Positions 15,077-51,742 of a stretch of 51,742 bases of DNA are shown here, one piece after another. The stretch spans positions 1-51,742 of the forward strand of contig JAJZPM010000021.1 in NCBI GenBank assembly GCA_021811105.1, in the 5' to 3' direction. The notes under the pieces were generated by a model, which was not told the origin of the DNA, ran no database searches, and saw only the letters and a program-made list of their open reading frames with translations. Position 1 is the stretch's first letter. The number at the start of each line of letters is the position of its first letter. Position numbers and translations under genes: made by a program. Source of the DNA: Nitrospirota bacterium (GTDB lineage Bacteria > Nitrospirota > Thermodesulfovibrionia > Thermodesulfovibrionales > UBA6898).

Positions 15077-15553
15077 CTACTTCTCGCCGGACGCTGCCAG
15101 CAGCCCGGCTTCAGCCGCGTACTCGTTGCCCGTAATATAATTCTCAAGGTCCCTGATCGTGACCTTCTGCGCGGTGATCAGGGCGTTCACCACGTCACCG
15201 ATGCTCACAAGCCCTATCAACGCGCCCTTCTCGATGACCGGCAGATGCCGCATGCGCTTTGCCGTCATGAGCGCCATGCAGTCCTCGATCGTCTTGTCCG
15301 GCTCGATGTAGAAGACCGGCGCGCTCATCAACTCTGCCACAAACGTACTCTTGGATGACTTTCCTTTCAGGATCACCTTCCTGGCGTAATCCCGCTCCGA
15401 AAAGATGCCGACGACGTTGTCGCAGTCCATCACGAGCAGCGCACCCACGTCCCTTTCGGCCATCAACTGCAGTGCCTCGTATGCGGTCCTTTGCGGCCCG
15501 ACCGACCATACACTGCCGCCCTTTGTCCCAAGGATCTTCCTGACTGTTATCAT
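15077..15553 (-). CDS. Two-CBS-domain protein
   Basis: The 158-residue product, start MITVRKILGTKGG, has two CBS domains in tandem (about residues 5-60 and 72-130). The first includes AERDVGALLVMDCDNVVGIF and SERDYARK. The second includes MTAKRMRHLPVIEKGALIGL and SIGDVV. CBS pairs bind adenine nucleotides or related ligands and sense energy state; no effector domain is attached, so the partner is unknown. The ATG at 15553 is supported by GGGAGG about nine bases upstream. The gene is downstream of an unusually structured leader and converges with the ribosomal operon. Confidence 0.9.
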   Translation of the reverse strand: MITVRKILGTKGGSVWSVGPQRTAYEALQLMAERDVGALLVMDCDNVVGIFSERDYARKVILKGKSSKSTFVAELMSAPVFYIEPDKTIEDCMALMTAKRMRHLPVIEKGALIGLVSIGDVVNALITAQKVTIRDLENYITGNEYAAEAGLLAASGEK

Positions 15554-15592
15554 TGTATCGTTCCTCCCTTCTGCGTTAGGGGTCCATCCCGG

Positions 15593-15800
15593 AAAAAAAA
15601 GCCGAACTGCGGAGGTATCACCGCAGTCCGGGCCAGCAGTAATGCAGTTTCCGGTTCGGCCTTTGACCTCCCCTCCCAAGGAGGCGTTGCGCGTCCGGTC
15701 CTGCCCTTCGGGTGGGCATTTGCCTTTTCCCACCCAGTCTATCATTCCTCGTTCCCGGACCCACGACTGGTCGGGGATCCGGCCCTATACTTAATTTAAC
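15593..15800 (-). ncRNA. Structured RNA leader or 3' region ending in an intrinsic-terminator-like stem
   Basis: Read on the minus strand, this segment folds into several strong stems: GGGTGGG with CCCACCC (or alternatively TGCCC with GGGCA), CTCC/GGAG pairs, ACTGCGG (15627-15621) with CCGCAGT (15612-15606), and an enclosing GCCGAA (15660-15655) with TTCGGC (15606-15601), followed at once by eight T (15600-15593). The CBS start is only 40 bases further on. It is either an attenuator/riboswitch-like leader of the CBS gene or the terminator region of the upstream HEAT/HD-GYP operon. A core reading AGGCAAA-stem-GGACGC-AACGCC faintly recalls the c-di-GMP-I (GEMM) aptamer, but its second half is not recognisable. 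Confidence 0.45.
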
Positions 15801-15914
15801 CTTACTCCTGTCGGCGCACCGATGTCAATTAGGTAATTTTAATTACCAGAAGAACTAAAGTCGATGATTTATCGGGGAATTTCGATTTGTTCAGAATGCC
15901 GAAAACAGAGTGGA

Positions 15915-17006
15915 TCAGAGTGTATTACTTCGGGTGAGCGCTGCTATGAAGTGATCAACGAGGAAGGGATTGAATTCTGTCCCCGCCCCCTCTTTAAGGA
16001 GATTCACAATCGACGCGACACCGACCGACTTTCTATACGGCCTTTCCGTCCTCAACGCATCGAAAAAGTCCGATATCGCGACCATCTGACTGATAAGGTG
16101 CTGCTTCTCTTCCTCTTCCCTTGTTCCGGGATAGCCGCTCCCGTCAAACTTCCTGTGGTGCTCGAAGGCAACGACCATCGCAAGTCTGGGCATGTTCGGA
16201 AGGGTGGAGAGGTATCTCGCCCCGCGCAGGGGATGAAGCTTCATCAACTCCCATTCATCCGGATCGAGCTTCGACTGTTTTTCCAGCACCTCGACCGGAA
16301 CAAAGAGCTTGCCCACATCGTGAAGGAGTCCTGCAAGGCCTACATCGCAGACGAGCTCTTCGTGCATCCCAAGCGTCTCTGCCTGGAATATCGTAAGTAC
16401 AGAGACATTGGTGGCATGTGTATACGTGTATTCATTGTATGCCTTTACAGGGCTCAATATGCTGAGGACGTTTGCCTCCTTTTTCAGGGTAGTGAGCAGC
16501 CCGGCCACCGAGTCTTCAAGTCTTCCCATGTCCAGTTTTTCTTTGTTGGAAATCCTCTTAAAGGCCTCCTTGATCTTTGCGAGGTTGTCCTCGACAAACG
16601 CTGTCAGGCTGCAGTCGTCGGACCGGGTCCGCAATTCTATGATGCCGACCGATATATGCTCACTCTTCAGGACATGCTCGTTTGAGGCCATGCCGGAGAT
16701 GAATTTCCGGAACTCGTCAGCCGACAACCCCTCCCTGATCTCGATCTTCTCGATCCCCTTTCTCCGGAGCTTCCTTGCCAGGCTGCCAAAGTGAATACCC
16801 ATTTCAGCAAGCGGCGTATTGTTGAAGACCAGGCCCTCACCCAGCAAGGTGATGCTCAGTGCCCCGTTTTCATAAAGGTCCTTCAGCTGCACAAAGGCCT
16901 TCGCCGCGAATTCGCCGACAATGGGATGGCTCGCCGAGTAAAGGGCGCAATTGGAGAAGGCGGCCATCAGGCTGGCCGTAAAATCCGAGATCCTGCCCTC
17001 AGTCAC
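15915..17006 (-). CDS. HD-GYP domain protein (probable c-di-GMP phosphodiesterase)
   Basis: HD-GYP enzymes hydrolyse cyclic di-GMP. The 363-residue product has an N-terminal domain (about 1-130) shared with the upstream HEAT gene (VFNNTPLAEMG; LRRKGIEKIEI), then the HD-GYP domain (about 180-350). Metal-site residues are visible: H197 (YTHATN), H229-D230 (GLLHDVGK), H258 (KLHPLRG), H283-H284, and DGSGYP at 288-293. The catalytic set looks complete. The start overlaps the end of the upstream gene by eight bases, so the two are co-expressed. No signal peptide or receiver domain is visible. Confidence 0.9.
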   Translation of the reverse strand: MTEGRISDFTASLMAAFSNCALYSASHPIVGEFAAKAFVQLKDLYENGALSITLLGEGLVFNNTPLAEMGIHFGSLARKLRRKGIEKIEIREGLSADEFRKFISGMASNEHVLKSEHISVGIIELRTRSDDCSLTAFVEDNLAKIKEAFKRISNKEKLDMGRLEDSVAGLLTTLKKEANVLSILSPVKAYNEYTYTHATNVSVLTIFQAETLGMHEELVCDVGLAGLLHDVGKLFVPVEVLEKQSKLDPDEWELMKLHPLRGARYLSTLPNMPRLAMVVAFEHHRKFDGSGYPGTREEEEKQHLISQMVAISDFFDALRTERPYRKSVGVASIVNLLKEGAGTEFNPFLVDHFIAALTRSNTL

Positions 17007-19152
17007 ATCTTCCTCCGCCGCTATGAAGCATTTTTTCGCTGAGAGACCTGATCTCCCTGTTTCTTGACTTCAGGCCGAATTCCAGCAAAGGTCTCGCCTC
17101 CTGAAAAGGATAGCGATGAAGGTTCCTGAATATTTCGATCTTCAGTCTGTCAGACTCGGCCCTGTTAAGCAGTGCGTTCGCACGGCAGATTTTAAAAAGC
17201 GTCTTCAGCACTTCCGGCTCGCCGATGTCGGCAAGAGCATCGACAACGGCTGCCTTGCCTGAACATATTGACCCGAATAAATCCCTTTTTTCAAGAAGCT
17301 CGACAAGATACGGCACCGCCTCCTTTACCTTGTACATACCCGACAGCCGTACCGCAAGTTCCCTGAGAGAGGGGTCTTTGCCGCCCAGATAAACTTTTAG
17401 GTACGAGAGCGAATCCGGCGTCCTGAAGTGAAGGAGGGTTTTTACCGTCTCTACGATTACCTTCTTTTCATGATGTCTCGTGAACGGTCGTACGTATTTG
17501 ACGAATTGGCTGCCGTTGCACTCCCTGATAAGGTAGATCATGTTTCTCACGACATACCAGCGGCTATCGTCAAGCCTCCGGGCCGCTTCAGGGACGACAT
17601 CGCCGCCGATGCGGCAGAGCGCATCGAGAAAGAACTTCCTCATGGACTCCTCCCGTTCGTACGTAAGTGCATCGAGCAAGAAGGGGATTACGCAGTCCTT
17701 CAGGGTGACGGAGAGTCCGAAGACTTCCTCCCTGCTGTGCCTTCCCCAGATCCTGAAGGCGGCTATAAGTCTCCGGAGAAACTCCGGGGAACCGAAAAAC
17801 CCCTTTATCATGCGAGCAGCCTCTTCCCTGAAGAGACCTTTGAGCGAATGGGAATAGATCTGCCGGTGAATCTCGGCGATATCGGCAAACCTGCCGGTCT
17901 CGACGAAGCCGGTTACAAAACCCGTGAGGTTGGACAGAATCTCGCGATATTCTTCCCTGCTGGTCGATTCGAGGGATAGGAGTGCAAATACTATCCTTGA
18001 TGCGCTCCTGTCGACGACTTCATCCCTGCATGCCTCCTCAAACTGAATTGCTGTCCCGTAGCTTTTTTCTCCCTGATTTTCGAGAATCCTTTTCAGTTCT
18101 TCCCGATATCCCTGGTCCATGAACCTGCCGTCCTGGTCCTTCTTGAACGACGAAACTATTCTTTCATTCACCTCAATGTCGTCAATATATGAGCTGCCGC
18201 CTTGGATATCCATAAAGAGATCTGTCTTGGACTGCTTCATTTTCTCGACCAGAGTCTTCAGCTTTTCAGGGAGCAGGGACGACTGTTCGTCGAAGACTTT
18301 CATCATTTTTCTGATGTCGTCGAACGTGAGTTCCGTGAGCAGCCGTTTAAGTTCCGCTGCATCCATCCAGCGGGAAGAGAAGGACAGGGACAGTAACTTT
18401 TCCTTCAGTGCCGGTGTCAGGTTGTCCACCATTGCAAGGAATTTTCCGAACAGTGCCGGGCTAGGTCTCTTTTTGCCGCCAAGATATGCAGAGATTACTG
18501 CGTCATACGCTTTTTCAGGCATGCCTGTGGCCGCGCTTTTTATGATGAACAGCGCCATCTCATCCGCAGAGAGGCTGTTTACGACATCTTCCCTGTCTTC
18601 TTCGGTCAGCCGGCCGTCCAGAAGGGCGGAAACGTATTCTTCCCAAAATTTGTCGCCGCCGCCTTCTTCCCTGGTGATGCCTTCCACAAACCTCACCTTG
18701 GATATGTCCAGAGGGGTAAGTTCGATATCGCCAAGCCCCTTCTCTCTGGCCAGCTCGACGAGGGCGGCTCCCGTGAGCGTCTCCCTTGCGGTAAGCAGCT
18801 CATGAAAACCGAAAAGCTCTTCGATCTTAAGCGTTGTCGGAAATGTTACGGAGGCTATCCCCTTGTGGTGCAGGGTCAGCGCGAACTCTTTGAGTGCAAA
18901 GATTTTCTTGCTCAGCGGTGTCTCATCGATCATAAGGGCGTCCTTGGCGACGCCGAGAGTCAGACTACCTCTGGATTCGAAGAGTTTCCGGAGAAAATTG
19001 AAGGCCCTGCCCATGGATTCCTTCGTCTGCGGATGATCCCTAGGATACAGACCTACGTTCCTTTTGGATATATTCAGCTCTTTGATCGCATCCAAAAGGA
19101 GCCTTGTGTCGGCCGCATCAAGCGGAGCTTTACTCTCTTTTGCCTCTTCCAT
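16999..19152 (-). CDS. HEAT-repeat protein with HD-GYP-associated N-terminal domain
   Basis: A 717-residue soluble protein. Residues about 15-165 form a domain like that of the downstream HD-GYP protein: both have an LYPRDHP/LYSASHP-like motif, a LIDETPL/VFNNTPL-like motif, and a helix with KGI followed by an EEL/DEF-F pattern. The C-terminal third (about 530-717) is a run of HEAT-like helical repeats (VVPEAARRLDDSRWYVVRNM; REAVPYLVELLEKRD-like). No catalytic motif is visible, so it is probably a scaffold or adaptor for the phosphodiesterase. No good ribosome site precedes ATG 19152, so the true start could differ slightly. The roughly 250 bases upstream hold no gene. Confidence 0.75.
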   Translation of the reverse strand: MEEAKESKAPLDAADTRLLLDAIKELNISKRNVGLYPRDHPQTKESMGRAFNFLRKLFESRGSLTLGVAKDALMIDETPLSKKIFALKEFALTLHHKGIASVTFPTTLKIEELFGFHELLTARETLTGAALVELAREKGLGDIELTPLDISKVRFVEGITREEGGGDKFWEEYVSALLDGRLTEEDREDVVNSLSADEMALFIIKSAATGMPEKAYDAVISAYLGGKKRPSPALFGKFLAMVDNLTPALKEKLLSLSFSSRWMDAAELKRLLTELTFDDIRKMMKVFDEQSSLLPEKLKTLVEKMKQSKTDLFMDIQGGSSYIDDIEVNERIVSSFKKDQDGRFMDQGYREELKRILENQGEKSYGTAIQFEEACRDEVVDRSASRIVFALLSLESTSREEYREILSNLTGFVTGFVETGRFADIAEIHRQIYSHSLKGLFREEAARMIKGFFGSPEFLRRLIAAFRIWGRHSREEVFGLSVTLKDCVIPFLLDALTYEREESMRKFFLDALCRIGGDVVPEAARRLDDSRWYVVRNMIYLIRECNGSQFVKYVRPFTRHHEKKVIVETVKTLLHFRTPDSLSYLKVYLGGKDPSLRELAVRLSGMYKVKEAVPYLVELLEKRDLFGSICSGKAAVVDALADIGEPEVLKTLFKICRANALLNRAESDRLKIEIFRNLHRYPFQEARPLLEFGLKSRNREIRSLSEKMLHSGGGRCD

Positions 19153-51624: not shown

Positions 51625-51742
51625 TTGGAGCGCCGGGATAAACCGGCATGGAGTTGAGAATGAAAGAGTCTCACATCGAAGGATTAGCCAACCACGATGA
51701 CCCTGAGTCAGGCATGGGTACCCGTGAGGGTACATGTGGAGC
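51625..51742 (+). mobile_element. Probable 5' end of a group II intron (cut by window edge)
   Basis: From about 51625 the sequence changes in character: GGAGCGCCGGGATAAACCGG and a frame from ATG 51648 reading KESHIEGLANHDDPESGMGT. This matches from memory the short non-functional frame read from the 5' structured part of many bacterial group II introns, ahead of the reverse transcriptase. The rest lies outside the window. Confidence 0.45.

Follow-up and report, generated by a model that had tools for sequence, protein, structure and literature searches.

The window analysed here is a 51,742-nucleotide stretch of a Nitrospirota genome in which a CBS-domain gene is preceded by a structured RNA ending in an intrinsic terminator. 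The locus raises the question of what this RNA does: whether it controls the gene that follows and, if so, by what means.

Layout of the locus

The whole feature was located on the minus strand, in the 5′ to 3′ order palindrome, promoter-like site, hairpins P1, P2 and P3, terminator, Shine-Dalgarno sequence and CBS gene, with a leader of about 235 nt from the predicted RNA start (approximately 15790-15793) to the gene. These bounds are wider than those of the first-pass annotation, extending through the promoter and a possible operator as far as 15847; the first base of the CBS gene is 15553 instead of 15554. The features are as follows.

15832..15847, no strand, AT-rich perfect palindrome GGTAATTAAAATTACC (GGTAATT-AA-AATTACC), adjoining the -35 box on its upstream side
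15799..15828, minus, promoter-like site from the five-species comparison: -35 TTGACA (15823-15828), 18-nt spacer, -10 TAAGGT (15799-15804)
15755..15782, minus, P1, the 5′ hairpin of the leader (CCGGATCC...GGGTCCGG), at the same position in all five species
15710..15735, minus, P2, hairpin GGGTGG/CCACCC with a purine-rich loop (AAAAGGCAAAT), its six pairs retained in four species and reshaped in the fifth
15644..15705, minus, P3, three-tier stem with core bases invariant in five species
15701-15704 / 15644-15647, minus, P3 tier GCAG/CTGC
15695-15698 / 15651-15654, minus, P3 tier CCGG/CCGG
15680-15684 / 15668-15676, minus, P3 tier CCTCC/GGAGGGGAG
15593..15631, minus, intrinsic terminator: 11-bp hairpin with an 8-nt loop TGATACCT, then C and T8; the strongest terminator call of the region
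15563..15568, minus, Shine-Dalgarno GGGAGG, read from the sequence, 9 nt 5′ of the ATG
15077..15553, minus, CBS-domain gene with two CBS repeats (PF00571, E value 6e-23; ATG 15553, stop 15077)

The closest solved structures to the CBS gene product were 4fry and 2rc3. The gene was 74 to 99% identical to those of four related species (G001 to G004), and rplQ was convergent to it in all five. The eight-T run that the first-pass annotation had placed about 40 bases before the CBS start was confirmed (T8 at 15593-15600, the terminator lying 39 bases from the ATG at 15553), as was the complementarity of GCCGAA (15655-15660) to TTCGGC (15601-15606). Two coding explanations of the leader were rejected. 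For a leader peptide, the frames were broken by indels and a conserved start was absent; for an N-terminal extension of the CBS protein, an in-frame ORF from an ATG at 15743-15745 had 77 open codons, against 2 to 10 in the other four species.

The -35 sequence TTGACA was unchanged in five species, and the -10 element varied among TAAGGT, TATGGT and TATCGT; this weak -10 element scored under the cut-off of the promoter scan. The adjoining palindrome was the sole copy in the genome when one mismatch was allowed, was partly kept in the four related species and is a possible operator or UP element. TTGACA together with an upstream motif, AACTTCAAA, was common to CBS orthologues of several related genera. 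The block GGAACTTCAAATTGACA or a near variant, which exceeds a plain -35 box, was present upstream of the CBS gene at four loci of other genera (L023, L025, L027 and L028).

Upstream neighbours

Upstream of the leader, the minus strand also carries an HD-domain gene, which has a GYP motif (HHRKFDGSGYPG) and ends at 15915. The hairpin might be only the 3′ terminator of an HD-GYP operon, one of the outcomes that the first-pass annotation had named as undoing its own reading. The HD-GYP gene was, however, the upstream neighbour in only one of the five species. In G001 the gene before this same leader was a DUF6982 gene, and G004 had the same ORF there; in G003 it was a sulphur-transport gene and in G002 a gene of no recognised family. 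Moreover, the promoter-like site lies between the HD-GYP gene and the hairpin, which itself stands 284 nt past the stop codon, compared with 16 to 38 nt for ordinary terminators situated shortly before a downstream gene in this genome. The operon-terminator reading is refuted as the main explanation by the promoter-like site and the differing upstream genes, and it can hardly be correct. As the upstream neighbour differs among species, it is to the CBS gene that the leader belongs; the connection to c-di-GMP that the neighbouring phosphodiesterase gene had seemed to offer was incidental.

The window also carries a DUF6982 gene, two genes further upstream, which is separated from the CBS leader by the HD-GYP gene and a HEAT-repeat gene (15918-19152, minus strand). 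Because DUF6982 adjoins the leader in G001, and the same ORF does so in G004, this pair of genes was either gained in the window or lost in those species.

Distribution and known RNA families

The leader was present in all five species examined of one uncultured Nitrospirota genus, represented by metagenome-assembled genomes, and always stood before the CBS gene. Among 101 relatives searched with blastn, only the genus's four other species carried it, at 71 to 95% identity. A covariance model built from the five leaders recovered the same five among 176 genomes of the order and, among 395 genomes sampled from the phylum, three leaders, from the genus members in that draw. Additional matches of this model elsewhere (20 to 31 bits) had unrelated sequence upstream and were rejected, being either GC-rich terminators of the ordinary type or weak look-alikes. 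No second copy was found in its own genome, and CBS orthologues from outside the genus, in other genera and other phyla, did not carry this leader. In these searches the leader is restricted to one genus. Two genomes of other genera (L027 and L030) have a different hairpin and T-rich run in the CBS-gene leader.

Part of the leader had been thought to recall the GEMM aptamer faintly. A cmscan search against Rfam 15, covering the window, the region itself to an E value of 10 and three homologous loci, matched no family at the leader or its homologues, where only chance hits to unrelated families appeared. GEMM (RF01051) remained below the gathering cut-off in both, while the same model detected two real GEMMs elsewhere in the genome (57 and 48.8 bits); GEMM was therefore rejected. 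The leader resembles GEMM in being structured and in carrying the short motifs GGCAAA and GACGC.CAA.GCC, but among the homologues GGCAAA was lost in G002 and GACGC in G002 and G003. The c-di-GMP-II riboswitch (RF01786) likewise had no covariance-model match. The 57-bit match was a c-di-GMP-I riboswitch (L001 1501-1577, minus strand) directly 5′ of a multihaem-cytochrome-like gene with CxxCH repeats, and at 51665-51742 on the plus strand a group II intron (RF02005) begins and is truncated by the window end.

These searches bear on whether the RNA is a true riboswitch whose class is as yet undescribed and whose ligand might be NAD or an adenine nucleotide; P2 and P3 would then form the aptamer and the terminator the expression platform. 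Adenine nucleotides are common ligands of CBS domains, and the architecture fits. The riboswitch-like description in the first-pass annotation held for the structured leader, its own conserved promoter-like site and the terminator; ligand binding is putative. A core of the riboswitch type, conserved across distant taxa with its unpaired bases included, was not found: the leader occurs in one genus, the unpaired junction bases of P3 varied among the five species, and Rfam holds no relative. A precedent is provided by the HMP-PP riboswitch, whose aptamer is embedded in a terminator with an abnormally conserved loop (PMC6478431). On balance, a true riboswitch is considered unlikely.

Folding of the leader

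Folding of the leader was stronger than chance in four species, with z values of -2.3, -2.4, -3.1 and -3.7 against dinucleotide shuffles; for a longer, 221-nt stretch, folded in the window alone, z was only -1.5. The P1 hairpin had energies of -12.3 to -18.9 kcal/mol, and its sequence was unrelated in G002 and G003; its structure is well supported, since the hairpin persists despite this. The inner core of P3 (GGCAG, CCGG, CCTCC, GGAGGGGAG and ACTGC) was nearly invariant across the five species, and conserved bases fell mostly within helices and the terminator. No compensatory changes were detected in P3 and no covariation in the terminator among the five sequences, both elements being too conserved for it. 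As no pair differed on both sides, the pairings of P3 and the terminator are consistent with the comparison but unproved. In the same genomes, the neighbouring rplQ terminator had a compensatory change from GGGCCC/GGGCCC to GGGCTC/GAGCCC.

Several other readings of the folded leader were rejected. A CsrA-controlled leader was discarded on the absence of csrA from the five genomes of the genus; GGA motifs numbered 10 to 14 per leader, an excess mostly accounted for by dinucleotides. By eye, the 8-nt terminator loop was not the A1/G4 hexaloop of an ANTAR target, and a G-quadruplex from GGGAGGGGAGG lacked its third G-run in G002. Pairing of the T-run with the Shine-Dalgarno sequence, proposed by RNAalifold on a MAFFT alignment, consisted mostly of G-U and A-U pairs and was discounted.

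Conservation of the terminator

The terminator hairpin, CCGGACTGCGG-TGATACCT-CCGCAGTTCGG at 15602-15631, has 11 perfect pairs and an energy of -20.1 kcal/mol. With its T-run and loop included, it was 92 to 95% identical to those of two divergent species, which were 97% identical to each other. The corresponding values were 68 to 73% for the leader before the terminator, 75% for the promoter segment and 71 to 78% for the CBS coding sequence, and identity fell to the level of shuffled sequence in the 100 nt 5′ of the promoter and in the DNA 3′ of the CBS stop codon. The odd feature of the locus is, therefore, that the terminator is more tightly conserved than the CBS gene. A plain terminator does not explain such exact conservation, which would follow if the sequence paired twice, formed a site for a protein or ligand or served as a small-RNA seed. 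The ligand version, an undescribed ligand-sensing RNA class that controls the CBS protein as an adenine-nucleotide sensor, would place the sensor partly within the terminator hairpin and so account for the exact conservation, and we consider it improbable.

The seed version is the main rival to control in cis. The RNA would be an independent trans-acting small RNA of about 195 nt with its own promoter and strong terminator, the CBS gene being read only by leakage; the CCUCC segments left exposed in P3 (CCUCCUU) and in the terminator loop (ACCUCC) would pair with the ribosome-binding sites of other mRNAs. The promoter-terminator unit is present, and the near-invariant loop and the CCUCC blocks, which are similar to anti-Shine-Dalgarno sequences, resemble seed regions. 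Against this, the gene immediately after the leader is always the same one and has a good Shine-Dalgarno sequence soon after the T-run, there is no further copy in the genome, and the RNA's own GGAGGGGAG can satisfy CCUCC. A small RNA is possible but on this evidence doubtful.

About 450 kb of this genome, with 421 ORFs, contained only one other strong terminator that lay more than 300 nt from the gene upstream of it and was followed by a gene on the same strand. This terminator (L155 14671-14687, minus strand) lies 313 nt past the upstream gene and 122 nt before a same-strand ORF, has no Rfam match and is a possible second leader of this kind.

Proposed attenuation and a possible alternative fold

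The best reading, to which we assign a probability of about 0.5, is that the RNA acts in cis as a transcription-attenuation leader for the CBS gene; probably, it decides whether that gene is transcribed. Promoter, leader and intrinsic terminator were conserved together before the gene. Attenuation is favoured because the leader was kept before the same gene in all five species while flanking noncoding DNA was not, because the terminator, with most of its loop, is invariant and more conserved than the coding sequence whereas the nearby rplQ terminator underwent compensated change (a terminator with two pairing partners would be held in this way and a plain one would not), and because terminators were also present in the CBS-gene leader of the two genomes of other genera.

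Transcription would begin at the leader's own sigma-70-like promoter. By default, the RNA would form P1, P2, P3 and the terminator, and most transcripts would halt some 40 nt short of the gene, at the T-run. Were P3 opened or left unformed, its 5′ strand (GCCGGAC) and the second GGAGGU could pair with the 3′ arm and loop of the terminator (ACCUCCGCAGUUCGGC), allowing polymerase to read through into the CBS gene. A ligand, protein or small RNA may provide the signal that shifts the balance between the folds. The second fold comprises pairing of CCTCC with the first GGAGG, of the second GGAGGU with ACCUCC of the terminator loop and of GCCGGAC of P3 with GUUCGGC of the terminator 3′ arm, and the invariant blocks CCGG, CCTCC, GGAGGGGAG and ACCTCC are compatible with both folds.

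Competition between the folds was computed for four species by single-sequence folding with the terminator penalised. The terminator dominated (P > 0.99) in three of the four. In G001 the alternative fold was the minimum-energy fold, with a terminator probability of 0.13; in the window it came within 5 kcal/mol, and G002 and G003 favoured the terminator. Dominance in three species but not the fourth implies that there is no common default state. Homologous strands gave the best or second-best alternative pairing in all five species, but the duplex energies of the upstream complementarity to the terminator arms were not above those of shuffled leaders (P = 0.06 to 0.5); hence, regulated attenuation is the best reading and not an established one. 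We infer that termination is regulated and that the alternative fold is used.

The same computations would suit a constitutive 5′ untranslated region in which a terminator of fixed strength merely tunes the CBS gene down and no signal is involved: the terminator was dominant in silico in most species tested, and the alternative pairing was no better than chance. Such a region leaves the conserved loop and exact sequence of the terminator and the P1-P3 architecture unexplained, and we rate it as unlikely, on a par with the true riboswitch.

Comparison with known systems

The leader is new as an element and ordinary in kind, a real, conserved, genus-restricted leader of the attenuator type. It adds a candidate attenuator for stand-alone CBS proteins, a widespread but little understood family, and offers a compact, testable object in a terminator held tighter than the gene behind it. 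It shares with generic attenuators (T-box and leader-peptide types, for example) the order of promoter, structured leader, terminator and gene and a candidate mutually exclusive fold, but differs from them in having neither a T-box match nor a conserved leader peptide. For the HMP-PP (thiS motif) riboswitch, the abnormally conserved terminator loop served as a first clue (PMC6478431). The likeness lies in such a terminator directly before a gene, with a competing fold of the terminator strands possible (PMC6478431); the leader described here differs in its long structured region before the terminator, in preceding a CBS gene rather than thiamin genes and in its occurrence in one genus. Should the terminator be a sensor, this leader would join the HMP-PP riboswitch as a second example of a terminator-embedded design.
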